64,000 bases of DNA, taken from a virus. A program made the position numbers and the translations under genes. The stretch covers positions 1 to 64,000 of IMG/VR virus record IMGVR_UViG_3300037264_004281, one strand, 5' to 3'. Below, piece after piece: positions 2,166 through 62,057 of this stretch (the first letter of the stretch is position 1; each line of letters begins with the position of its first letter). The notes under the pieces were generated by a model. It saw only the letters and a program-made list of their open reading frames with translations. It did not search any database and had not been told where the DNA came from.

Positions 2166-3380
2166 ATGTCAAATAAACGCGTATCTTCATTATCTCTTAT
2201 TACAGCCGCCGAGTTGGCTTCGGACGATCTTTTTTTATTAGCAGATGTATCCAATATTGAATCTAAGAAGTTACCGATAGATGAACTTGGTGAGTATATG
2301 CAAGCATATATTACAAGTTCTGGAACATCTAGTTATGCATTAAATGCTTTAAGTGCTTCATATGCTTTAAGTGCTTCATATGCCATAACTGCCTCATATG
2401 CCATAACTGCTTCATATGCCATAACTGCCTCACATGCCATAACTTCTTCTCATGTTGTAAGTGCATCATATGCTATAACTGCCTCACATGCTATAACTGC
2501 TTCATATGCGTTGACATCTTCAGTTGAATTTATGTTTTCGTCGGCGTATGCAGATTATGCTAAAAGTGCATCTTATTTAATTTATTCGGGTATTCCAAAT
2601 GGGACAGCATCTTATACTTTAATTGCAGAGTTAGCAGAGTTGGCCAGAACCTCTAGTTATCTTTATTTTGACGGAGTAAATTCAAATGGAACGGCAAGTT
2701 ATGGAATATTTGCTAAATTGGCAAGTACCGCTTCTTATTTATCTTATCAAGGATATCCAAATGGAACGGCATCATTTGCTTTAATTGCAAATAATGCTAA
2801 CTCAGCAAATTCAGCAAATTTTCTTGTATATGATCCTTTTAATTCAAATGGAACGGCATCGTATGCTATTTCTGCCTCTTATACTATATTGGCAGATAAT
2901 TCTGTTTCTTCTTCTATAGCTGCTACAGCATCATACGCGAAGAATGTAATAGGAAATTATAAATTATATGGACCATTTACAATTTCATTATCTTCTCCTG
3001 ATACTGGAGGATTATCTTTAACATTTACATCATCCATGCAATATCCTCATTTAATATTTGAATTTGATGGAGATGTGTCTACTACCGCATTAACAACTAT
3101 ATATCCTGCTTCTCACAGTAAAATATATGGGGTGGGTACTACTCCGTCCTTGCCTCTAACTAATGTCGAAATATTTAATGCTTTTAATCACGTATATGCT
3201 TCTACTGGCGTATTTCATGTTACCAGAAGTGTATTTTTGAAATCTTTTAATCAAAGTTTTGATTCGAGTTTTAAATGGAATTTAGCTTTTTATGCACATA
3301 ACTCTCAATTTCAATCTGTGTTAAGATCTTTGATGTTATGGGTTTATAGCTATGAATGTGATGATATTAATTTAGGATGA
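2166..3380 (+). CDS. ASYAIT-repeat virion protein, paralogue 1
   Basis: This 404-residue protein is the first of three tandem paralogues. The N-terminus (ELASDDLFLLAD) resembles the DDFFPLV segments of the other two. Next comes a low-complexity stretch of hexads of the type ASYAIT (about residues 55-120), then several longer NGTASYA repeats. The C-terminal domain starts after LYGPFT, a motif shared with the next two proteins. Repetition, Ser/Ala/Thr/Tyr richness and tandem duplication suggest a fibrous tail or surface protein. No chaperone or enzymatic domain was recognised. Virion role is inferred; paralogy is seen directly. Confidence 0.65.
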   Translation: MSNKRVSSLSLITAAELASDDLFLLADVSNIESKKLPIDELGEYMQAYITSSGTSSYALNALSASYALSASYAITASYAITASYAITASHAITSSHVVSASYAITASHAITASYALTSSVEFMFSSAYADYAKSASYLIYSGIPNGTASYTLIAELAELARTSSYLYFDGVNSNGTASYGIFAKLASTASYLSYQGYPNGTASFALIANNANSANSANFLVYDPFNSNGTASYAISASYTILADNSVSSSIAATASYAKNVIGNYKLYGPFTISLSSPDTGGLSLTFTSSMQYPHLIFEFDGDVSTTALTTIYPASHSKIYGVGTTPSLPLTNVEIFNAFNHVYASTGVFHVTRSVFLKSFNQSFDSSFKWNLAFYAHNSQFQSVLRSLMLWVYSYECDDINLG

Positions 3381-40073: not shown

Positions 40074-40727
40074 ATGAAAAGAGGAATGGGAAAAAGTAAT
40101 ATAGATATTGTAAAAGATTATTTAAACAATCAAAGACCATTTGTCACGATTGGATATGCTGGAGAAAAAAATAAATATAGAACAGAGGGAGAGACATGGG
40201 AAGATTTCAAAGGCATAAAATGGCAAAAAGTAAATGGAAAAAATGTAAAATTAACAAAAACTCAAAGCGATATTATAAGAGAGGCCATCGGAACTCGAAA
40301 ATGTAAATGTGGTCTTGATATAAAATTTGGAAATAGATTTGATCAAAAATTATTTGCAAAAACGGGAATGTGTCAAGATTGTCTTGTCGAATATGAAACT
40401 AATCTTACAATAGCAGGATTGTTCCCTGCTTATGAGCGATATAAATTACTTTCAAATGAACTTGGATTGTTGAATGATTTCAAAGAAAAATTAAAAGAAA
40501 CTATTAGATATTTTGGTAAAGAAGATTCTTCCATAGAAATTTTGTGTAATTCCAGTGGATTTCAGGAAAAATTTCATGGAACCAACAAAAAACAAATATT
40601 AAAAAATGCGAAAGAAGATTTGAAAAAATTAAACTTAAGATTGTCGGAAGTTAAAAAGATGAAATCCTTTGAAAAGAAAAAATTAATGCTGGGGGCAAAG
40701 GAATTTAAGATAAAATTATATGTCTAA
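40074..40727 (+). CDS. zinc-finger protein in the small-terminase position
   Basis: A 217-residue basic protein with a CKCG...CQDC metal-binding-like motif around residues 79-103, flanked by a Lys-rich N-terminal region and a C-terminal half that looks like paired helices. It overlaps the terminase large-subunit start by 8 bp. The small terminase (gp16) often occupies this place in T4-like phages, but gp16 does not normally have a zinc motif, so this identity is only a possibility. Other options are a packaging accessory or DNA-binding protein. Confidence 0.5.
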   Translation: MKRGMGKSNIDIVKDYLNNQRPFVTIGYAGEKNKYRTEGETWEDFKGIKWQKVNGKNVKLTKTQSDIIREAIGTRKCKCGLDIKFGNRFDQKLFAKTGMCQDCLVEYETNLTIAGLFPAYERYKLLSNELGLLNDFKEKLKETIRYFGKEDSSIEILCNSSGFQEKFHGTNKKQILKNAKEDLKKLNLRLSEVKKMKSFEKKKLMLGAKEFKIKLYV

Positions 40728-43700
40728 TAACCAAGTTTCTTATCAGGATTTAATTAAACAGGAATATAAAAAATGTTTAGGTTCTCCTGTTTATTTCATG
40801 AAAAAATATGTTAAAATTCAACATCCTATAAGAGGAAGTATTTTCTTTGATTTATATCCTTTTCAACAAGATGCATTACAAGATTTTCATGATTTTAATT
40901 TTAATATTATTCTAAAATCTCGTCAAATGGGAATATCTACCCTTGTTGCTGCATATTCTTTGTGGCAAATGATTTTTAATAAAGATAAAAATATTTTAAT
41001 TATTTCCTTAAAACAAGAAGTTGCAAAAGAAATTATAACTAAGGTAAGATTTGCCAACGACAATTTACCTCCTTGGTTAAAAGTTAAGTGTGATGAAGAT
41101 AATAGACTGTCGTTAAAATTTGTAAATGGATCTCATATTAGAGCAACATCTACAACTAAAAAGTCAGGCGTATCGTTGGCACTTTCATTACTCATCATTG
41201 ATGAAGCCGCTTTAATTGAAGATGCTGGAGAATTGTGGACTTCTGCCCAGCCCACATTAAGTACTGGAGGGCGCGCCATCATATTGTCTTGTGTAACTAA
41301 AAATACAATCGTAATGACGGATAAGGGATTAAAACAAATTGGAGATTTTATTGATAATAAAAAAATGGGAGGATACGAAATTCAACCATATAGTGTTTTA
41401 GGAAAAAATATATTAAGACAAGGAAATTTAATTCAAAATAATGGAATTAAACAAACAAAAATAATAAAAACAAAATTTGCAGAGTTAGAATGTACTGAAA
41501 ACCATAAATTATGGGCATATAAAAATAAAGAAAGTAAGTTTGGGTGGTATAAAAGCGAAGATTTAGAAATTGGAGATTATCTTTGCCAACAAATTGGAAA
41601 AAGAATATGGGGAAATTCAGATGAAATTGTTGAATTTAATCCAACCATATCATCAAAAATTCATTATTCCTTTTATCCTACACAATTTTATCCCGATTTA
41701 TGTTATTTTTTAGGATTATATATTTCCGAAGGAAGTTCTTATAAAGTATTAAATAAAAACGGAAATATGGTTGGAGGATCTATTACTATTACTTGTGGGG
41801 ATGATATATCTTTAGTGTTTGATAGATTAAATTTATCATATAGTTGTTGGGATAAATTACATTATACAATTTCTAATAAAAATTTAGTAGAATTTATGGA
41901 ATATATTGGATTTGACTTATCTAAAAAAGCAAATCAAAAAGAAATTCCCAGTAGATTATTAGAATTGTCTGAAAAAAATATAATATATTTACTCCGTGGG
42001 ATTTTTGATGGTGATGGGTCCGGAACTAAAGATGGTAGAGTAAATTTAACATCTACTTCAAAAATATTAATAGATCAAATTAGAATTATTTTATCTAATT
42101 TTGGAATTGTTGGATCTGTTTATAAAGAATTAATAGAAAAATTAAACAATAGAAATCATAAAATAAAATATAATTACGATTCTTATAAATTAGAAATTTG
42201 CGGGAGAAATGCTTTAAAATATTACAATTTAATTGGGTTTAATTTAGATAGAAAACAAAAAAATAAAGATATTTTATTGAAAAAAAATTTAGATCGAGCG
42301 TGCAGTAGAGATATTATACCATCTTCCTTGGATTTAATGAAAAAATTAATTAATTTATCGGAATTAACATTTTATCAAATAAAAAAAGAATATAATTTAC
42401 AAGTGAATTCTTATTGTAATTCAAAGAAAAAACATAAAACTAATGACATTTCGCGTGATAATATTTTATTATTATATAATTTATTTAAAGAAAAATTGTC
42501 AGAAGAAGAACAAAACTATTGGGATAAAATTATTGATGAAGATTTGGTTTGGTCTCAAATAAAATCTATAGAAAATTCGGAAAATGAAACATTTGATTTT
42601 TCTTTACCTTATAACCCAAATGATTTTTGGTGTCATTCTATAATTTATAATTCTATATTAGGACATCAAACTCCAAGAGGTGTTGGTAATTGGTTCCATA
42701 AAATGTGGCAAGGATCGGAAGAAAATAACGATGGAAAAATAGGAAAAAATGGATTTCACCCGATTAGGATGCCTTGGCATTATCATCCAGAAAGAGATGA
42801 AGAATGGAGAAAAATTGAAGGAGAAAAAATTGGAGATCCTAAAAAAGCCTCTCAAGAATTTGATTGTGATTTCTTGGCATCTGGTGAAAACGTTGTAGAT
42901 TTGCGTATTATTGAATGGTATAAGAAAAATCGTAAATCTGATCCAGCAGATGTTAGAGGTGCAGACCATGGATTATGGGTTTGGCAATACCCCGATTATT
43001 CAAGAAGTTATATTGTTACAGCAGACGTTGCTCGCGGTGATGGATCTGATTTTTCTGCTTGTCATGTAATAGATGTAGTAACTTTAGATCAATGTGCCGA
43101 ATATAAAGGAATGTTAGGAACAAAGGATTTTGGAAATTTTTTGGTTGGACTCTCTACAGAATATAATAATGCCTTACTTATTGTAGAACGAGAAAATGTA
43201 GGATGGGCAACATTGCAAGCTATTATAGATAGAAATTATCCTAATACTTTTTATAGTTCAACCGAACTTAAATATGTTGATGTTCAGCGTCAACTTCAAA
43301 ATAAATACGATTCGGAAGATAAAAAACTAGTTCCTGGGTTTAGTACAAATATAAAAACTCGTCCGTTGGTTATAAGTCATCTTGAACAATATTGTCGTGA
43401 AGAATTTAACTCTGGATCGGGTATAAAGATTTATTCTCAACGAACATTGTCAGAATTGGAAACTTTTGTTTGGAAAAATGGTAAAGCACAAGCAATGGAA
43501 GGATATAATGATGATTTAGTTATGTCACTTGGTATTGGATTGTGGGTTAGAGATACAGCATTAAGATTGCGGCAAGAAGGCATAGACCTTACCAAAGCTA
43601 CTTTATCACATATAGATATGACAAAAAGCGAAGTAAAGCCTTATTATAAATCCCAAGCAGCCGAAATTGGATATAAATCATGGATTATGAAAACTGGAAG

Positions 43701-43752
43701 GCAAGGATTTGGACAACATGGGGATGAAGATATACGGTGGCTTATTAACTGA
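40720..43752 (+). CDS. 17: terminase large subunit interrupted by an intein
   Basis: A 1010-residue precursor; removing residues 191-650 leaves a 550-residue gp17-like terminase. The packaging ATPase has Walker A SRQMGIST (about 67-74) and Walker B LLIIDEAA (about 158-165). The intein lies after GGRAIILS, the ATPase motif III region, and the chain resumes with TPRGVGNWFHKMW. The C-terminal RNase H-like nuclease has acidic residues in TADVARGDGSDFS and in GYNDDLVMS. The enzyme cuts concatemeric DNA and pumps it into the prohead. Splicing is required for function because the intein interrupts the motor. Confidence 0.93.
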   Translation: MSNNQVSYQDLIKQEYKKCLGSPVYFMKKYVKIQHPIRGSIFFDLYPFQQDALQDFHDFNFNIILKSRQMGISTLVAAYSLWQMIFNKDKNILIISLKQEVAKEIITKVRFANDNLPPWLKVKCDEDNRLSLKFVNGSHIRATSTTKKSGVSLALSLLIIDEAALIEDAGELWTSAQPTLSTGGRAIILSCVTKNTIVMTDKGLKQIGDFIDNKKMGGYEIQPYSVLGKNILRQGNLIQNNGIKQTKIIKTKFAELECTENHKLWAYKNKESKFGWYKSEDLEIGDYLCQQIGKRIWGNSDEIVEFNPTISSKIHYSFYPTQFYPDLCYFLGLYISEGSSYKVLNKNGNMVGGSITITCGDDISLVFDRLNLSYSCWDKLHYTISNKNLVEFMEYIGFDLSKKANQKEIPSRLLELSEKNIIYLLRGIFDGDGSGTKDGRVNLTSTSKILIDQIRIILSNFGIVGSVYKELIEKLNNRNHKIKYNYDSYKLEICGRNALKYYNLIGFNLDRKQKNKDILLKKNLDRACSRDIIPSSLDLMKKLINLSELTFYQIKKEYNLQVNSYCNSKKKHKTNDISRDNILLLYNLFKEKLSEEEQNYWDKIIDEDLVWSQIKSIENSENETFDFSLPYNPNDFWCHSIIYNSILGHQTPRGVGNWFHKMWQGSEENNDGKIGKNGFHPIRMPWHYHPERDEEWRKIEGEKIGDPKKASQEFDCDFLASGENVVDLRIIEWYKKNRKSDPADVRGADHGLWVWQYPDYSRSYIVTADVARGDGSDFSACHVIDVVTLDQCAEYKGMLGTKDFGNFLVGLSTEYNNALLIVERENVGWATLQAIIDRNYPNTFYSSTELKYVDVQRQLQNKYDSEDKKLVPGFSTNIKTRPLVISHLEQYCREEFNSGSGIKIYSQRTLSELETFVWKNGKAQAMEGYNDDLVMSLGIGLWVRDTALRLRQEGIDLTKATLSHIDMTKSEVKPYYKSQAAEIGYKSWIMKTGRQGFGQHGDEDIRWLIN
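41290..42669 (+). mobile_element. intein with LAGLIDADG endonuclease in terminase
   Basis: A 460-residue intein. Block A starts at Cys191 (CVTKNTIVMTDKGLKQIGDF), block B has TENHKLW, and the C-terminal end is SILGHQ before Thr651. The usual final Asn is replaced by Gln, a known but less common variant. Two LAGLIDADG-like helices are visible, YFLGLYISEG and LLRGIFDGDG, so the homing endonuclease is probably of that class. It sits at the conserved ATPase motif III site, a frequent insertion target in terminases. Confidence 0.9.
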
Positions 43753-43829: not shown

Positions 43830-46800
43830 ATGGCGACTCCTTTGGTAAAAGCATTCGAAGATGAGGTAATAAATGTAAAACAGCAATCGTTGTATGCTCG
43901 ATTACGTAGGTTATTTTCTACAGATGTTATTGTTAGAAACATTGGTGGTAAACAACTTAAAATAAAAGATACCGACAATGTAATGTATGCAACGGATAGG
44001 AATTCGTTGCGTGATAGATTTAATCGTATTCGCTCAACTGCTTATAATGCTTATACTAGAGATTTTGCATTATCCTACCAAGCAGCAAGAATGGACCTTT
44101 TTCGCGATTATGACTGCGTAGGTCCAGATACGATTATCCCTCTGCCAGACGGAACTTATCCTACTATAGCAGAATTAACAGAGAAATATAAGGACAAACC
44201 ACAAGAGCGATTTTATGTCTTCTCTTATGACCATAAAACCGATTCTATAAAGTTAGGTAAAGCATTCCATCCACGCAAGAAAAAAGGAACCAGAATGGGG
44301 TATAAAGTTACTTTTGATAACGGTCAATATGTTATCGGAAGCATAAAACACCCGTTCTTGATGCGAGACGGTACATACAAACGTATCCTTGAACTTCGTG
44401 TTGGTGATTCTGTAATGCCATTTTATCAACACGAATATGGTTATAAAAAGAATGGAATTAAACCTTATAGAAAGATTTATAACTTTTCTAAGGGGTATCA
44501 GTCGGCACATAAAATAGTCGTTGAACAATTTCAAAGGAAGTTGATTGGAGACGAGGTAATTCATCATAAAGATTTCAATGGATTTAATAATTCTCCTGAA
44601 AACTTACAAATAATGAACCGAAAAGATCATGATGAATTTCATGCGAATCATAGTAAAAATGTAATATGGGGACCGAAAAACTATGAAAATCAACTTAATA
44701 AGTTAAAATCTCATCCTAATTATATTAATAGAAAGTTCCATCAATGGAATGGTGAACGACAAGGTGAAAATAATCCTTTTTATGGCAAAATCCATACAAT
44801 GTTATCTAATGAATTTCGTTCCAAAACTCTCAAAGAAGTTTTTAAAGATAGAGATCAAACTGGAGAAAATAATCCAAAATATAGAGATGATCTTACAATA
44901 GAAGTATTGAAAGTTAAAGCAGCAGATCATTATAAGAAAAATGGAAAATTAACTTCTTGGGGTCTTGTGAAAGATTTAGGATGTGATTATTCTGTTCTAC
45001 AAAACCGATTAAAGTCTTCCAATATTAATTGGAATTCATTCAAAGATGAAGTAGTTTCTACATTAAATCATAAAGTAGTTTCTATTGAATGTATAGGTCC
45101 AATTGATGTTTATGATGTCACTGTTGAAGAATATCATAATTTTGCGTGTGATAGTTGTATCCTAAAAAACACAATGGATATGGATCCGATCATTGCTTCA
45201 TGTCTCGATATTTATTCTGACGAGTGCTTGACTTATAATGAAATGGGCAAAGTTTTAACTGTTCATTCAACCAATAATAATGTTAAACAAATCCTTGAAA
45301 ATCTATTTGGAGATATTTTAAATATTCAACACAATTTGTGGTCGTGGACTAGAAATATGTGTAAATATGGAGATTTCTTTCTTAAACTTTATATTACACC
45401 AGAGTATGGTATTTACATGGTAGATCCTATTTCAGCATATAATGTTGAAAGAATAGAAAATTCCGATCCTTATAATAAGCGTTATGTAAAATTTCAACTT
45501 CGTCCTACGGATACCGCCCAAGCAGAAGTGTGTGAGAATTATGAAATAGCTCATTTTAGGTTAATGAGTGATTCTAATTTTCTTCCTTATGGAAAATCCA
45601 TCATTGAAGGTGCTAGGCGGGTATGGAAGCAATTAAGTTTGATGGAAGACGCAATGTTAATTCATCGTATCATGCGTGCGCCTGAAAAGCGTATTTTTTA
45701 TACTGATATAGGAAATATTCCTCCGAATGAAGTAGATACTTTCATGAGAAAACAGCAGGATATGATGAAAAAAGTTCCTTATATGGATGAAGTAACAGGA
45801 GAGTATAATCTTAGATTTAATTTAATGAATATGGTTGAAGATTATTTTATTCCTGTTCGTGGTAGTGATAGTGGAACTAGAATTGATACTCTTAATGGAA
45901 TGGCTTGGACCGGAACGGATGATATTGAATATCTAAAAAACAAGTTAATGGCGGCTCTTAAAATTCCAAAGGCATTTTTAGGATATGAAGAGGGAATTTC
46001 TGGTAAAGCAACTTTGGCATCTGAAGATGTGAGGTTTGCAAGAACGATTCAAAGAGTTCAAAGAATATTAACTTCTGAGTTGACGAAAATAGCTATTGTT
46101 CATTTATATGCCCAAGGATATAGAGATGAAAGTTTAGTTGATTTTGATCTAGAATTAACAAATCCAAGTACAATATTTGAGAAGGAGAAACTTGAGATTT
46201 GGTCTGATAAAGTTAGTGTTGCGGTTGATATGATGGAGGCTAAATTATTTTCTAAGGATTGGATTTATAAGAATGTCTTTAATATGTCAGAGGATGATGG
46301 TAAATCTCTAAAGGATGAGGTTATTGAAGATACGAAGCAAATGTATAGGTTGACTTCTATTGAAGAAGAAGGAAATGATCCAGCAAAACCATTTAATAAA
46401 ATTGACGGAGGTGGCGGTAAAAAGGGTGATGGTGGTGAGGGCGGTCTTGGAGGAGGTGGTGGTGGGTTAGGGGGTCTTGGAGGTGGTGGTGGTCTGGGCG
46501 ACATAGAAGATTTGGAAGGTGGAGGACCGCCCGGTGAGGAAGAAGTGCCGCCCGGTGAGGAAGAAGTACCGCCCGGTGAGGAAGAAGTACCGCCCGGTGA
46601 GGAAGAAGAGGAAGAAGAAATCCCAGTAGTTACAGAAATACACAAAGAAAGAGATCAATCTGGGGAACATAAAGCAAGTTCACATGTATTTGGTGAAGAC
46701 CCACTTGGCGAGAAAGAACTTCATGAGAAACCTAAAGAAAGAAGTGAAGGAAAACGAAAAAGTGAAATTAGACACAATTTTGCTAAAGGATCTCCATTAT

Positions 46801-46964
46801 CGGTTAGAGAAAATAGAATAAACCCAGACGGGGTTTTAATGAGAAGTTTATCGGAATTTGATAATAAAACTAGAAAAGATATAGAAAAAGAACTCATAGC
46901 AGAAACCCAAGGCAGTGGAAGCAGAAGGAAATCATTGCTAGACGAGTCTAACATATTGGAATAA
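43830..46964 (+). CDS. 20: portal protein (gp20-like) interrupted by an intein
   Basis: A 1044-residue precursor; removing residues 96-447 leaves 692 residues. Extein blocks such as MDPIIASCLDIYSDECLT, DPISAYNVERIEN, FLPYGKSIIEGARRVWKQL and GKATLASEDVRFARTIQR fit T4 gp20-type portals, the dodecamer at the packaging vertex. After the core comes an unusual tail: a Gly-rich stretch, four perfect PPGEEEV-type repeats and a run of Glu, then a basic C-terminus. The intein is placed near the N-terminus, after LFRDYD. The call is based on the conserved core and on its position between terminase and prohead protease. Confidence 0.88.
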   Translation: MATPLVKAFEDEVINVKQQSLYARLRRLFSTDVIVRNIGGKQLKIKDTDNVMYATDRNSLRDRFNRIRSTAYNAYTRDFALSYQAARMDLFRDYDCVGPDTIIPLPDGTYPTIAELTEKYKDKPQERFYVFSYDHKTDSIKLGKAFHPRKKKGTRMGYKVTFDNGQYVIGSIKHPFLMRDGTYKRILELRVGDSVMPFYQHEYGYKKNGIKPYRKIYNFSKGYQSAHKIVVEQFQRKLIGDEVIHHKDFNGFNNSPENLQIMNRKDHDEFHANHSKNVIWGPKNYENQLNKLKSHPNYINRKFHQWNGERQGENNPFYGKIHTMLSNEFRSKTLKEVFKDRDQTGENNPKYRDDLTIEVLKVKAADHYKKNGKLTSWGLVKDLGCDYSVLQNRLKSSNINWNSFKDEVVSTLNHKVVSIECIGPIDVYDVTVEEYHNFACDSCILKNTMDMDPIIASCLDIYSDECLTYNEMGKVLTVHSTNNNVKQILENLFGDILNIQHNLWSWTRNMCKYGDFFLKLYITPEYGIYMVDPISAYNVERIENSDPYNKRYVKFQLRPTDTAQAEVCENYEIAHFRLMSDSNFLPYGKSIIEGARRVWKQLSLMEDAMLIHRIMRAPEKRIFYTDIGNIPPNEVDTFMRKQQDMMKKVPYMDEVTGEYNLRFNLMNMVEDYFIPVRGSDSGTRIDTLNGMAWTGTDDIEYLKNKLMAALKIPKAFLGYEEGISGKATLASEDVRFARTIQRVQRILTSELTKIAIVHLYAQGYRDESLVDFDLELTNPSTIFEKEKLEIWSDKVSVAVDMMEAKLFSKDWIYKNVFNMSEDDGKSLKDEVIEDTKQMYRLTSIEEEGNDPAKPFNKIDGGGGKKGDGGEGGLGGGGGGLGGLGGGGGLGDIEDLEGGGPPGEEEVPPGEEEVPPGEEEVPPGEEEEEEEIPVVTEIHKERDQSGEHKASSHVFGEDPLGEKELHEKPKERSEGKRKSEIRHNFAKGSPLSVRENRINPDGVLMRSLSEFDNKTRKDIEKELIAETQGSGSRRKSLLDESNILE
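44115..45170 (+). mobile_element. intein with HNH endonuclease in the portal
   Basis: A 352-residue intein from Cys96 (CVGPDTIIPLPDGTYPTIAEL) to Asn447 (CILKN), followed by Thr. Block B is GSIKHPFL, with Ser where Thr is usual, and the residue before the final Asn is Lys rather than His. The inserted endonuclease is an HNH type (VIHHKDFNGFNNSPENLQIM) followed by NUMOD3-like motifs (GENNPFYGK and GENNPKY). It therefore differs in origin from the LAGLIDADG inteins in the terminase and SWIM genes. Confidence 0.88.
46527..46610 (+). repeat. four 21-bp repeats encoding PPGEEEV in the portal tail
   Basis: The unit CCGCCCGGTGAGGAAGAAGT(G/A) occurs four times, with changes only at the last positions of the units. 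It is notably GC-rich against an AT-rich background and follows a Gly-rich segment. Confidence 0.92.
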
Positions 46965-56750: not shown

Positions 56751-58484
56751 ATGGATAACGTAAAAGAACTGTTGACCAATGCTCTTAATCCTCAGGCCCG
56801 CCTCATGCAAGAGACCCGTGGTTTGGTTTCTAAATGGGAAAAGACGGGATTACTTGAAGGACTTAAGAATGACATTGAAAAATCTAATATGTCTGTTTTG
56901 CTTGAATCACAAGCAAAACAACTTATTGAAGAATCCTCTGTTACCGGGACTCAAGGTAACGCCGAACAATGGGCAGGAGTGGCACTTCCACTCGTTCGCC
57001 GTGTGTTTGCAGAAATCGCGGCAAAAGAATTTGTCTCGGTTCAACCAATGAATCTCCCATCAGGACTAGTTTTCTACTTGGATTTCAAGTATGGAACTAA
57101 TAATGGTGTATTTACGGCAGATTCTGCAACCAATTATTCATCGCTATTTGGTGGTACTGGTGTTAAATCGGGATCTACAGATTCTCCAACCGGAGGTCTT
57201 TATGGCCCGGGTCGTTTCGGATATACTGTAAATGATCAAACCGTGTGGGTTACCGCAACATCGGCATCAGCAACATTGTCTGATATCAATTTTGATACTG
57301 GAAATGCTAATGATCCGACAAAACAAAGTATCTCTTCTTCGTATGCCGCAGGACGTTTGTTCACATTGACTACTGTTGGACTTACAACCAATGCATTGGC
57401 AGGATCAGGAAGCGCACCAGATCATAATGGAGTTCGTTCATTTAAACTAGTTGCTACCGGATCTAACGGTGGTGGACCAGGAACTCCAGGTAACTTAGTA
57501 TACTTCCCAGGATTTACTAAAACAAATGGTACAGAAGTAACATTCGTTGTTAGTGCATCTAATGCAACAGATGCTAATTATGCAAAATCAGGATCAAGTG
57601 CAATTTATGTAAATCTTTCATTACAACCAAAAGATACTGCTCGCGGTGACTTTGAAGATAAACTTGGGGCTTCAACATCAACCGATACTGGCCTTAACAA
57701 AGATATTGGCATCCCAGAAGTCAATTTGGAACTTCGCTCCGAACCAATCGTAGCCAAGACTCGTAAATTGAAAGCAGTTTGGACGCCAGAACTTGCTCAA
57801 GATCTTAACGCTTACCACTCGGTAGACGCTGAGGCTGAGTTAACTGCTCTATTGTCCGAATATGTTTCTATGGAAATCGACCTTGAAATCTTGGATATGT
57901 TAATTGTTAACGCTCCAGATATTAACAAGGAACGATGGTCTGCCAAACTTAACCGTGAAATTATCAAGACGGGAACCAATTCCTATACAATTGTCGATGC
58001 AACGGCTGCGGGAACTGGTGGATATTACACAAAGGCAACATGGTATCAAACCCTCGGAAATAAGATTCAAAAGGTATCTAACAAGATTCACCAATTGACT
58101 CTCCGTGGTGGTGCTAACTTCCTGGTTGTCGGACCAGATGTTGCTACAATCCTTGAATCTATTCCTGGATTCGTAGTAAATACAGATGGCGATAGCGCGA
58201 AATTCGCAATGGGTGTAAGTAGAGTTGGTAGCTTCGCAAGTCGCTTCCAAGTCTATAAGAATCCATATATGCAAGAAAACTTGATCTTGCTCGGATTCCG
58301 TGGAAATAATTTCCTAGAAACAGGTGCGGTATATGCCCCATATATCCCACTTATCCAAACTCCTCTAGTATACGATCCAGTTAACTTCACACCAAGACGT
58401 GGAGTTATGACTCGTTATGCTAAGAAAATAGTCAGGCCGGAATTTTACGGACTTATATATGTATCTGACGTTGATCAGGTCTAA
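56751..58484 (+). CDS. 23: major capsid protein (gp23-like)
   Basis: A 577-residue HK97-fold major capsid protein of the T4 gp23 type. Recognisable blocks include NAEQWAGVALPLVRRVFAEI, LPSGLVFYLDFKYGT, VWTPELAQDLNAYHSVDAEAEL, LVVGPDVATILE and the C-terminal EFYGLIYV. A likely gp21 cleavage site, LIE/E at residues 60/61, removes the N-terminal delta region as in T4 (65/66). Codon use differs from the neighbours: more CGT/CGC for Arg and AAC for Asn, as expected for the most abundant protein. A terminator follows. Confidence 0.95.
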   Translation: MDNVKELLTNALNPQARLMQETRGLVSKWEKTGLLEGLKNDIEKSNMSVLLESQAKQLIEESSVTGTQGNAEQWAGVALPLVRRVFAEIAAKEFVSVQPMNLPSGLVFYLDFKYGTNNGVFTADSATNYSSLFGGTGVKSGSTDSPTGGLYGPGRFGYTVNDQTVWVTATSASATLSDINFDTGNANDPTKQSISSSYAAGRLFTLTTVGLTTNALAGSGSAPDHNGVRSFKLVATGSNGGGPGTPGNLVYFPGFTKTNGTEVTFVVSASNATDANYAKSGSSAIYVNLSLQPKDTARGDFEDKLGASTSTDTGLNKDIGIPEVNLELRSEPIVAKTRKLKAVWTPELAQDLNAYHSVDAEAELTALLSEYVSMEIDLEILDMLIVNAPDINKERWSAKLNREIIKTGTNSYTIVDATAAGTGGYYTKATWYQTLGNKIQKVSNKIHQLTLRGGANFLVVGPDVATILESIPGFVVNTDGDSAKFAMGVSRVGSFASRFQVYKNPYMQENLILLGFRGNNFLETGAVYAPYIPLIQTPLVYDPVNFTPRRGVMTRYAKKIVRPEFYGLIYVSDVDQV

Positions 58485-58599: not shown

Positions 58600-59370
58600 A
58601 TGAAAAGTGGAATATACAAAATAACGAATAAAGATACAAATAAATTTTACATTGGAAGTGCTATTGATATAGATTGGCGTTGGACTCTTCATAGAAGAGA
58701 ACTGAGAGCTAATCGTCATTGTAATCCAAAATTACAACATTCATGGAATTATCATGGAGAAGATAAATTTTCTATTTCTATATTAGAAGAGATAGAAAAT
58801 CCAAATCAGATTAAACTATTTGAACGAGAACAATATTATTTAGACACTTTCAAACCATATGAATGAGAAATTGGATATAATATTGGTTCTAAAGCTATAG
58901 GAGGAGATAATATAACACATCACCCAAATAGAGAAGCTTTTATAGAAAAAATGAAAATTATAACTATGGGAGAAAACAACGGTATGTATGGAAGAGAACA
59001 TTCGTCAGATGCTATTAAAGAAATGAAAGTTAAGGCGGAAGGACGATATACATTAGATTGGTTCGTGAATAGGTATGGAAAACGAGAAGGGAAAAATAAA
59101 TATTATAAACGAAAAAAGATGTTGTCAAATAGAAAAATAAACCACATTTATGATAATGGACAAAGAGGAAAATCTAAAGGAATACCATCTATATTGACGC
59201 GAGAACGTATTTCACAAGTAAAAGAAAAAATGATAACGATAAAATCTGATCTTATAAAAGATATTAAATCAGAAAAATATACAATAAAACAACTATGTGA
59301 AAAGTATGATATAGGACCAACAGCGGTAAAATATAATAAAGCAAAACTTAAGAAAGAAGAAGTTATATGA
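58600..59370 (+). pseudogene. GIY-YIG homing endonuclease split by an in-frame TGA
   Basis: Residues 1-88 are a GIY-YIG domain (SGIYKITNKDTNKFYIGSA, then an Arg helix, and FEREQYYLDTFKPYE with the late Glu). A TGA at 58864-58866 stops this frame. The same frame continues without shift: EIGYNIGSKAIGGDN, a NUMOD3-like GENNGMYGREHSSDAIKEM (from 58951), and a C-terminal helix-turn-helix (YTIKQLCEKYDIGPTAVKYN) to 59370. Together they form one typical about 256-residue homing endonuclease. TGA is a normal stop elsewhere in the window, so recoding to Trp is unlikely. Inactivation or read-through are the remaining options. The 3' end overlaps the ATP-grasp start (ATGA). Confidence 0.8.
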
Positions 59371-60044
59371 ATTGGAAAGATTATTGTAAAGGGTTTGCTA
59401 TTCAGCGTAATTATTCTGGGTGGGAAACCAAGTGTTTAACTACAGTGGCGGTATTAAATAAAATTCCATTTAGAGGAATTCGTAATCCTGATTATGTAGA
59501 AGATGGGTGGATTCCTAGTGGTACAGTTGCGTGGGTTTCATCTGTACTTGGAGAAAATATAACTCCAAATTATTTTCCGAAATTTCTAAAAAAGGATTGG
59601 GTAAAGAGGAAAGTTTGGTATCAAGAGAAGTGGTCTTTACAAAAAGTTTTTATTAAACCCGCTGACAAATATAAACGGTTTGATGGATTTATTACATCTG
59701 GCGGATGGGATGGAAAAAAGAGAGGACCATACTGGTGTTCAGAAGTTGTTAAGTTTATAGATGAGTGGAGATATTATATAGCGTATGGTAAAGTGATAGG
59801 AGGATATTGGTATTTAGGAATAGATGATGATCCTAAATCAACTCCGGAATTAAATATTAAATATCCAGATAATTGGTGTGGTACAGCAGATTTTGGAAGA
59901 TTGGAAGATGGAGATATAGAATTGATAGAATGTCATTCGCCTTTTGCGTGTGGGTGGTATGGAAAAAATCATGAAGAGTATGCGGAGTTTTTGACATTAG
60001 GATGGAAGTGGTTAACGGAAAAGAGTTACAAAGAAACCTTTTAA
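59367..60044 (+). CDS. ATP-grasp-like protein (DUF4343-type)
   Basis: A 225-residue protein whose second half matches the ATP-grasp pattern of the DUF4343 group. It has a lysine strand (KVFIKPADKYKRFDGFI), an EWRYYIAYGKVIGGYWYLG stretch and the metal-binding end FGRLEDGDIELIECHSPFACG. ATP-grasp enzymes join a carboxylate to an amine or thiol using ATP. The substrate cannot be told; modification of a peptide, cell-wall precursor or small molecule are possibilities. It starts within the stop of the broken GIY-YIG gene. Confidence 0.7.
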   Translation: MNWKDYCKGFAIQRNYSGWETKCLTTVAVLNKIPFRGIRNPDYVEDGWIPSGTVAWVSSVLGENITPNYFPKFLKKDWVKRKVWYQEKWSLQKVFIKPADKYKRFDGFITSGGWDGKKRGPYWCSEVVKFIDEWRYYIAYGKVIGGYWYLGIDDDPKSTPELNIKYPDNWCGTADFGRLEDGDIELIECHSPFACGWYGKNHEEYAEFLTLGWKWLTEKSYKETF

Positions 60045-60080: not shown

Positions 60081-62057
60081 ATGATTTCTTTTAAGAAAAT
60101 AATGAGACAAGTTTTATCTGAAGTTATGTCTTTTAGAGATTTGTTGGGAAGAAGTGATCCGGCAAGAAAAGATAGAGCAAAACATGTTAGGACAAAATCT
60201 CTTGGAGTAAAAACAATGGATAATAATGAAGCTTGGACTTTTTCTTATAAATCCGAGCCAAGTTGGTCAACTACCGGACAGAGATGGCGGGGGTATGTAA
60301 GATTTTTAAAAGAAGATGTAAAACAAGCAGAGAATGCTGAAGATTTAAATTGTATGGTGGATTGTACTTGTTTTTCTGGGGATGTATTAGTATTAATGGG
60401 TGATGGAACATATAAACCAATAAAAGATATAAAAATAGGAGATTTGGTATATACTCATAAAGGTAGAATAAAAAAAGTAATAAATACGGTTACAAAAAAA
60501 GTAACTACTAAAGATTTAATGTATAGAATAAGAGTATGTGGATTTCCGCATGAAATGATAGTGACCGGAGATCACCCATTTTATACTTTGAGAGGAAATG
60601 ATTTTTGTTTATGTGGATGTCAAACTCCTATATGGGAATCCGTATATTCTCACGAATGTTCTTCACCAGATTTAATTTTAAGCAGAAAATATGCAAAAGG
60701 ACATTATAGAGGAATTAGAGGAAATATTCCTGAAGATAATTGTAAGGGCACATTTAAGTGGATTTCCGTTAAAGATTTGCGAGTTAATGAATGGTTTTTA
60801 ACGCCTTGGTTTGAAAGTGGAAAATTAAAATCTGATTCGGATTTTTCAAGATTAGTAGGATATTATATTGCAGAAGGATGTATTCCGTCTACGCGAGGTA
60901 CAACGGTTAGATTAACTTTTAATATAAACGAATGGAATACCTTGGGAAAAGATGTTTCTAATATATGTAAAAAACTTGGGTATAAATTTTCATTATTTAA
61001 AAGTAATCATGGGAATTGGTTTGATGTTAGAATTAATGATAAATCGTTTAAAAATTTTTGCATTGAAAATGTTGGAGTTGGTTCTTTAACAAAGAAAATT
61101 TCTCCTAAAATAATGGAATTTGATAACGATTCATTGAAAAATATATTCATTGGATCTATATTGGGAGATGGGTGGATAGATCCTCTTAAAGGAATGAAAT
61201 ATGTTTCTATAAATTTTAATTTAATATCTCAAATTTCTACCATATTAAACAAACTTCATATTAGACATACCATCTCTATATCGAATAAAAATAATAATAA
61301 TAAATTGCGACATACACTATTTCAAGTGGTTATTCCTAGAGGGGAAAATGCAGAAATAGTTAGAGATTGGTTAAAACCATATCTTAGAGAAAAAGATTTA
61401 TTTATATCTTCTCAAGATGATTTAAGATCTAAACATCATAGTAGATCGGAAGGATATCTTAAATCTATAAAATTGTATGAAAAAATACAATATGATGGAT
61501 TAGTATATGACATCACTGTAGAAGATGATGAATCTTTTATAGCAAACGGAATAGCAGTTCACAATTGTCCTGATTATAGATTTAGGTGGGCGTATAGGAA
61601 TGCGGAAGCGGATGCGGGAGCGTTAGGACCGGGGGCGTGGAATAAAAATAATGGAAATCCACCAAGGTATCCTAATACAGATTTAGGCACGGGAATGTGT
61701 AAACATTTAATTTCTCTTGGAGAATACTTAAAAACAAAAATAGATCCTACTGCACCAGAACCTCCGGAAGAACCAGTTTCAAAAAAACCAGTTAAACCAA
61801 TAACAAACCCCAGAGCATATGTGCCGCCTAAAGAAAAATTGCCCATTCAACCAAAATTAGGTGTAGCACCAGAACCTCCGAAAGATCAAAAAAAGCCAGT
61901 TAAACCAATAACGCCTATAACCCCAACTCCTTATTCAGATACAAGGTCGGGTGATTTATTAGAAGGAAAAAACAAGTTGTACGGAGAAATGGAAAAGTTT
62001 GTTAAAGATAATCCTGAATTTGAAGTACCATATGAAGATGAACCAGAAAGATCTTAA
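60081..62057 (+). CDS. SWIM zinc-finger protein interrupted by an intein
   Basis: A 658-residue precursor; removing residues 97-495 leaves 259 residues. The N-terminal helix MISFKKIMRQVLSEVMSF is targeting-like with a possible VLSE/V cleavage. The extein carries a SWIM motif CxCx(n)CxH: Cys95-Thr-[intein]-Cys496-Pro-Asp-Tyr, then GMCKHL with Cys540 and His542. SWIM domains bind nucleic acid or protein. A Pro-rich repeat tail (EPPEEPVSKKPVKPI, KKPVKPITPI) follows. The intein separates the zinc ligands, so the finger forms only after splicing. The role in the phage is unknown. The 3' end overlaps the next gene by about 20 bp. Confidence 0.8.
   Translation: MISFKKIMRQVLSEVMSFRDLLGRSDPARKDRAKHVRTKSLGVKTMDNNEAWTFSYKSEPSWSTTGQRWRGYVRFLKEDVKQAENAEDLNCMVDCTCFSGDVLVLMGDGTYKPIKDIKIGDLVYTHKGRIKKVINTVTKKVTTKDLMYRIRVCGFPHEMIVTGDHPFYTLRGNDFCLCGCQTPIWESVYSHECSSPDLILSRKYAKGHYRGIRGNIPEDNCKGTFKWISVKDLRVNEWFLTPWFESGKLKSDSDFSRLVGYYIAEGCIPSTRGTTVRLTFNINEWNTLGKDVSNICKKLGYKFSLFKSNHGNWFDVRINDKSFKNFCIENVGVGSLTKKISPKIMEFDNDSLKNIFIGSILGDGWIDPLKGMKYVSINFNLISQISTILNKLHIRHTISISNKNNNNKLRHTLFQVVIPRGENAEIVRDWLKPYLREKDLFISSQDDLRSKHHSRSEGYLKSIKLYEKIQYDGLVYDITVEDDESFIANGIAVHNCPDYRFRWAYRNAEADAGALGPGAWNKNNGNPPRYPNTDLGTGMCKHLISLGEYLKTKIDPTAPEPPEEPVSKKPVKPITNPRAYVPPKEKLPIQPKLGVAPEPPKDQKKPVKPITPITPTPYSDTRSGDLLEGKNKLYGEMEKFVKDNPEFEVPYEDEPERS
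60369..61565 (+). mobile_element. intein with LAGLIDADG endonuclease inside a SWIM motif
   Basis: A 399-residue intein from Cys97 (CFSGDVLVLMGDGTYKPIKD) to Asn495 (SFIANGIAVHN), followed by Cys496. All canonical splicing residues are present: the first Cys, block B TGDHPFYT, the penultimate His, the final Asn and the +1 Cys. Two LAGLIDADG-like motifs, LVGYYIAEGC and IFIGSILGDGWI, mark the homing endonuclease. It appears fully functional for splicing by sequence. Confidence 0.93.

Follow-up and report, generated by a model that had tools for sequence, protein, structure and literature searches.

A probably mobile LAGLIDADG intein at a predicted metal-ligand cysteine of a SWIM-like viral protein

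A gene in the viral DNA analysed here carries an intein exactly at the codon of a conserved cysteine in a CxC...CxH motif. The stretch (hereafter the window) is 64,000 nucleotides long and lies within a virus record of 66,960 bases. We put the probability at roughly 0.84 that this is a mobile class-1 LAGLIDADG intein which occupies a conserved metal-ligand cysteine and splices out to leave a SWIM-like zinc motif. The insertion is not an isolated case, as unrelated inteins have repeatedly invaded this one motif in viruses, at two of its ligand cysteines. The insertion site is new, as is the convergence on two ligands of a single motif, whereas the kind of element is already known.

The intein and its junction

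The precursor ORF (60081..62057, plus strand, as are its parts below; 658 residues; Pfam and NCBIfam matches) consists of a 259-residue SWIM-like extein split by a 399-residue intein. Alignment with L001, an intein-free homologue on another viral contig, delimits an N-extein of residues 1-96 (60081..60368) that ends in Cys95-Thr96. Cys95 (60363..60365) is the first cysteine of CxC and predicted zinc ligand 1. The intein spans residues 97-495 (60369..61565), from its Cys1 to His398-Asn399. The C-extein (61566..62054) starts with Cys496 (codon 61566-61568), which is at once the +1 nucleophile and the second cysteine of CxC, and it contains the CxH half of the motif as Cys540-Lys-His542 (61698..61706) within GMCKHL. 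The first-pass annotation had placed a 399-residue intein between Thr96 and Cys496; its coordinates and numbering are exact, its span of 60363-61568 is the intein plus Cys95-Thr96 and Cys496, and profiles, fold and L001 all agree with it.

The identification as an intein is based on Pfam, NCBIfam and Foldseek, and on the intein-bearing relatives L010, L018 and L022 discussed below. Within the insert, Pfam Intein_splicing (5.2e-11) and LAGLIDADG_3 (1.2e-7) were matched, as were the NCBIfam models of the C-terminal region (TIGR01443, 1.7e-10) and the N-terminal region (TIGR01445, at residues 97-169). An AlphaFold model of the precursor is confident mainly across the intein, with low confidence in the extein parts, and a Foldseek search with this model retrieved PI-SceI and the TliVMA intein (E about 4e-17) in addition to LAGLIDADG nucleases including I-DmoI. 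The architecture is that of class 1: block A begins with Cys1 (CFSGDVLV from residue 97), the block B TxxH is TGDH (residues 162-165; 60564..60575), in which T66, G67 and H69 are invariant in the intein alignment (A3), and block G has the penultimate His494 and terminal Asn495 (61560..61565), reading VHN immediately before the cysteine. The endonuclease has both LAGLIDADG motifs, LVGYYIAEG (60852..60878) with the catalytic Glu265 and FIGSILGDG (61146..61172) with the catalytic Asp363, and these two acidic residues are invariant among the aligned intein relatives.

In its Hint fold, Cys1, TxxH, His-Asn end, +1 cysteine and two-motif LAGLIDADG endonuclease, the window's intein resembles PI-SceI/VMA, TliVMA and PI-PkoII. 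It differs from inteins of the PI-SceI/TliVMA type in its host, which is not an ATPase or polymerase but a small protein of a phage that bears a zinc-finger-like motif, and in an added CLCGC...GH element past block B. The CLCGC part lies at 60606..60620 and the accompanying Gly-His at 60699-60704; C80, C82, G83, C84, G111 and H112 are invariant in A3, among four inteins of the window's lineage, and the element is kept in the more distant intein L057/L089. The element resembles a small zinc knuckle and may serve the endonuclease in DNA recognition.

Across the junction, the extein reads ...NCMVDC-T/C-PDYRFRW...GMCKHL. L001, which is 59% identical over its length and, like the window, has the major capsid gene upstream, reads DCMVDC-D-CPDYRYRF...GMCKHL. 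As L001 is uninterrupted across the site, it fixes the exact junction. At E 0.01, 71 phage records contain intein-free relatives more distant than L001, with Erwinia, Dickeya, Pseudomonas, Burkholderia and Achromobacter phages among them; in Bacillus phage SP-15 the intein-free site reads HCTCPDFHYRF...GVGCKHI. When the extein of another locus, L113, was used as query, 88 phage records matched, and among the matches listed the extein is unbroken. No intein-bearing case was found among the phage isolates searched.

The motif, its metal and the fate of the precursor

In an alignment of nine homologues from very divergent phage proteins (A1, in spliced numbering), C95, C97, C141 and H143 are invariant. 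As all four motif positions are invariant, the +1 cysteine of the intein is the conserved cysteine at the second ligand position of CxC...CxH, as the first-pass annotation had held. That claim would have fallen had intein-free homologues lacked CxC...CxH, and they retain it. The annotation had also expected CTCP at the junction; the CxC part holds, but a strict CTC does not, as the residue between the two cysteines can be T, D, S, M or N. In the spliced reading, the CxC...CxH ligand pattern is kept in 13 of the 13 loci that we tabulated.

The annotation called this a SWIM motif, and here we retain the ligand pattern and soften the name. Pfam SWIM recurs as a weak match in seven of the nine homologues (best E 0.0021). 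The window's extein gave no match to this model (PF04434), and among the intein-bearing exteins that were scored the best reached 17.9 bits, below the cut-off of 19.6. In the founding definition of SWIM, about 6-25 residues separate the two halves; in the intein-free phage homologues, the spacer from CxC to CxH is 37-47 residues, which is outside that range. Because of the long spacer and the sub-threshold Pfam scores, we refer to the motif only as SWIM-like. The AlphaFold model of the intein-free L001 (pLDDT 44) was too poor to use, and a profile search with A1 found no solved structure.

If the intein behaves as its residues predict, Cys97 would form a thioester, Cys496 would attack it, and cyclisation of Asn495 would release the intein and join the exteins into CTCPDYRFRW...GMCKHL with the CxC...CxH ligand set intact. 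We infer from its sequence that the window's intein splices and homes, and that the spliced CxC...CxH product binds zinc. The first-pass annotation had gone further and argued that zinc could bind only after splicing. That need not hold: Cys97, the first residue of the intein, itself restores C-T-C in the precursor before splicing, and this makes a metal site near the splicing centre of the precursor conceivable.

Three other readings have to be weighed against this one. An intein that has decayed and is inherited as a splicing-dead domain, so that the protein lacks function or undergoes cleavage instead of splicing, is very improbable. The splicing residues are all intact (Cys97, TGDH, VYD, His494-Asn495 and the +1 Cys496), as are both LAGLIDADG acids, the frame is open, and the extein remains conserved on either side of the intein. 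It is also unlikely, though less remote, that the CxC...CxH motif is no zinc site and that the intein simply sits at a conserved cysteine kept for redox chemistry, say, or for another metal. The spacer, longer than in classical SWIM motifs, and the Pfam scores below threshold speak for this reading, but the invariance of four ligand positions across such divergent proteins and the repeated weak SWIM matches speak against it.

In the remaining reading, which we consider quite doubtful, the half-formed site of the precursor captures zinc and thereby holds the splicing nucleophiles. Cys95 together with Cys97 and/or Cys496, possibly with Cys540/His542, would serve as ligands, and splicing would await the zinc state of the cell, as a post-translational switch. 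Zinc could gate splicing here because in a mycobacterial DnaB intein zinc binds the initiating cysteine and reversibly blocks splicing (PMC7360933), although the zinc ligands of that intein are residues of the intein, whereas the junction studied here is a predicted pair of zinc ligands in the extein. The ligand cysteine and the two nucleophiles are neighbours in the sequence, and gating is compatible with recurrence at two ligand positions. However, the ordinary inhibition of cysteine inteins by zinc requires no extein ligand, conserved cysteine codons predict the recurrence equally well, and insertions at the third cysteine, which split CxH differently, occur too. If gating were true, the splicing centre and the zinc site would be a single device and activation of the phage protein would depend on zinc; repeated capture at two ligands would then reflect retained regulation beyond mobility alone. 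These inteins are natural precursors for asking whether extein metal ligands tune splicing.

Recurrence and origins of inteins in the motif

With the window's intein alone as a single-protein query, no relative was found in viral contigs, so pattern scans and the A3 and A4 alignments were used instead. We scanned viral contigs, and bacterial and archaeal genomes totalling 257 billion bases, for an intein end followed immediately by CPD. Twelve of the 15 matches in viral contigs, counts that describe strict-pattern matches and not a prevalence, are inteins whose +1 cysteine is the second cysteine of CxC, with CKH 38-46 residues downstream of it. The other three (L016, L017 and L021) were rejected because they have no CxC-intein start upstream. 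None of the 27 matches in the bacterial and archaeal genomes was a SWIM-like intein at the second cysteine (Fisher p 4e-8; 1e-6 with duplicates collapsed). Collapsing the duplicated contigs (L009/L015/L023 and L013/L020) left nine distinct loci: L009, L010, L011, L012, L013, L014, L018, L019 and L022. For L012, this includes only the C-side junction, as the N-side falls outside the fetched stretch. A pattern for the second cysteine of the jumbo-phage variant (HN/CE[NS]) gave five matches and the one pattern tried for insertion at the first cysteine (HN/CxCP) gave four, with no SWIM case in either.

The inteins at the second cysteine belong to two unrelated lineages. The window's own lineage comprises LAGLIDADG inteins of 399-412 residues (the window, L010, L018 and L022) that are mutually 39-53% identical, the other three having 40-48% local identity to the window's intein. 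As these relatives interrupt the same residue, chance is excluded as an explanation for the site in the window. The second lineage contains mini-inteins of 140-146 residues (L009 and L014) and inteins with an HNH-type insert (L011, L013 and L019), supported by an HNH_3 match in L019 (5e-8) and, in L011 and L013, by visual recognition of the motif. In the splicing-domain tree, a starred branch separates this HNH/mini group from the LAGLIDADG group, and the HNH/mini group joins inteins of portal proteins, including the window's own portal intein. A tree in which all second-cysteine inteins form one clade was rejected by the AU test (p 4.9e-6; 2.0e-6 without long-branch rows).

A further insertion site emerged when we scanned with the window's intein lineage. 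The intein of L057 (on the same contig as L089) is 31% identical and sits just before the cysteine of CxH. A scan for the pattern HN/CKH added three more inteins at this third cysteine (L096, L109 and L113), which brings the total there to four loci; their spliced readings restore CxC...CxH. In L113, the intein interrupts the version of the protein that occurs in jumbo phages, whose gene adjoins that of a phage sigma factor. Most other matches to the third-cysteine pattern were set aside as other proteins or chance, among them a CKHFSKAKG family (DNA-methylase-like), a CKHxPA family and others. In the tree, L089 adjoins the window's lineage and L109 adjoins L013, while L096 and L113 fall elsewhere. 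A single clade was rejected for the third-cysteine inteins (p 3.6e-5) and for all inteins in the SWIM-like motif together (p 4.6e-5).

This means that LAGLIDADG, HNH and endonuclease-free inteins share one cysteine and that several lineages occupy a second ligand, a convergence seen in viruses and absent from the bacterial and archaeal genomes scanned. Three properties of the site may explain it. The host would already provide the +1 cysteine nucleophile, the DNA at invariant ligand codons would be conserved enough to serve as an endonuclease target, and imprecise loss of the intein would remove a ligand, so that only exact deletion would be tolerated. Together, these advantages would suffice for repeated capture of the motif by unrelated inteins at its second and third cysteines. 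This leads to a broader, testable idea, namely that inteins are drawn to ligand cysteines for these three reasons.

Related insertion sites and genomic context

The first-pass annotation regarded a SWIM metal site as a non-standard insertion point. In our literature search, which was limited to open-licence papers, we found none that links inteins with SWIM motifs, and in this respect the claim stands; the nine further viral loci at the same cysteine and the four at the CxH cysteine show that the site is not used by one intein only. A metal-ligand site as such is not unusual in kind, as it has a precedent in the inteins of Rv2578c-type radical-SAM proteins (NCBIfam NF038136), where a metal-ligand cysteine likewise doubles as the +1 residue. 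The NF038136 model is interrupted at the third cysteine of CxxxCxxC, and an intein-free Rhodococcus homologue reads GCSHACRYC/FARP. That case differs in that it concerns the [4Fe-4S] motif of a bacterial enzyme and, as far as tested, one ligand position only. Mobile inteins of phage genes for terminase, portal, RNR and DNA methylases lie at conserved residues, often beside invariant motifs (PMC5050341), and in the window, too, the terminase and portal genes bear inteins. The word SWIM is absent from that paper, and here unrelated lineages strike one motif at two ligands. Given the radical-SAM precedent and the commonness of phage inteins beside invariant motifs, we describe a new site and not a new kind of element: a zinc-finger-like motif can be added to the sites at which inteins are known to insert.

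Upstream of the intein-bearing gene, the window encodes, on the plus strand, a terminase large subunit (40720..43752) interrupted by a LAGLIDADG intein (about 41290-42669), a T4-like portal protein (43830..46964) interrupted by an HNH intein (about 44115-45170) and the major capsid protein Gp23 (56751..58484). The portal intein ends in Lys-Asn before Thr, and the terminase intein has an apparent terminal Gln before Thr-Pro-Arg-Gly. The head-related genes of this one fragment thus contain three inteins with two endonuclease types. Between the capsid gene and an R2K-clade ATP-grasp gene (59367-60044; 4.7e-19), which is directly upstream of the intein-bearing gene, lie a short GIY-YIG nuclease ORF (58600-58866; 4e-12) and a second ORF that matches NUMOD3 weakly (58951-59370). 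These two ORFs may represent a free-standing homing nuclease that was broken or split.

In Bacillus phage SP-15 and Listeria phage LIS04, the gene of the host protein is flanked by neck and tail-sheath genes; it is preceded by a T4-like portal gene in L011, and lies near a sigma factor in L113 and Salmonella phage Sen-NF. From these positions, our guess is that the protein helps to express late genes or to assemble the virion. Near the SWIM-like gene of L001, positions 2872-3372 encode an RF-1 domain protein (2.5e-28), a GGQ-type peptide release factor.

The scans also uncovered inteins in other viral proteins. L058, L060, L062 and L063 have related 420-residue inteins in a phage protein with the junction HN/CEHVQIPELSKG, again with a +1 cysteine; the host is labelled as a prohead protease in our tree, which is a guess. 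Viral inteins were also seen in a protein with the pattern SPD/C...HN/CKHFSKAKG, which looks like a cytosine methyltransferase (L077, L081, L088, L092-L095, L103, L106-L108, L111 and L122).
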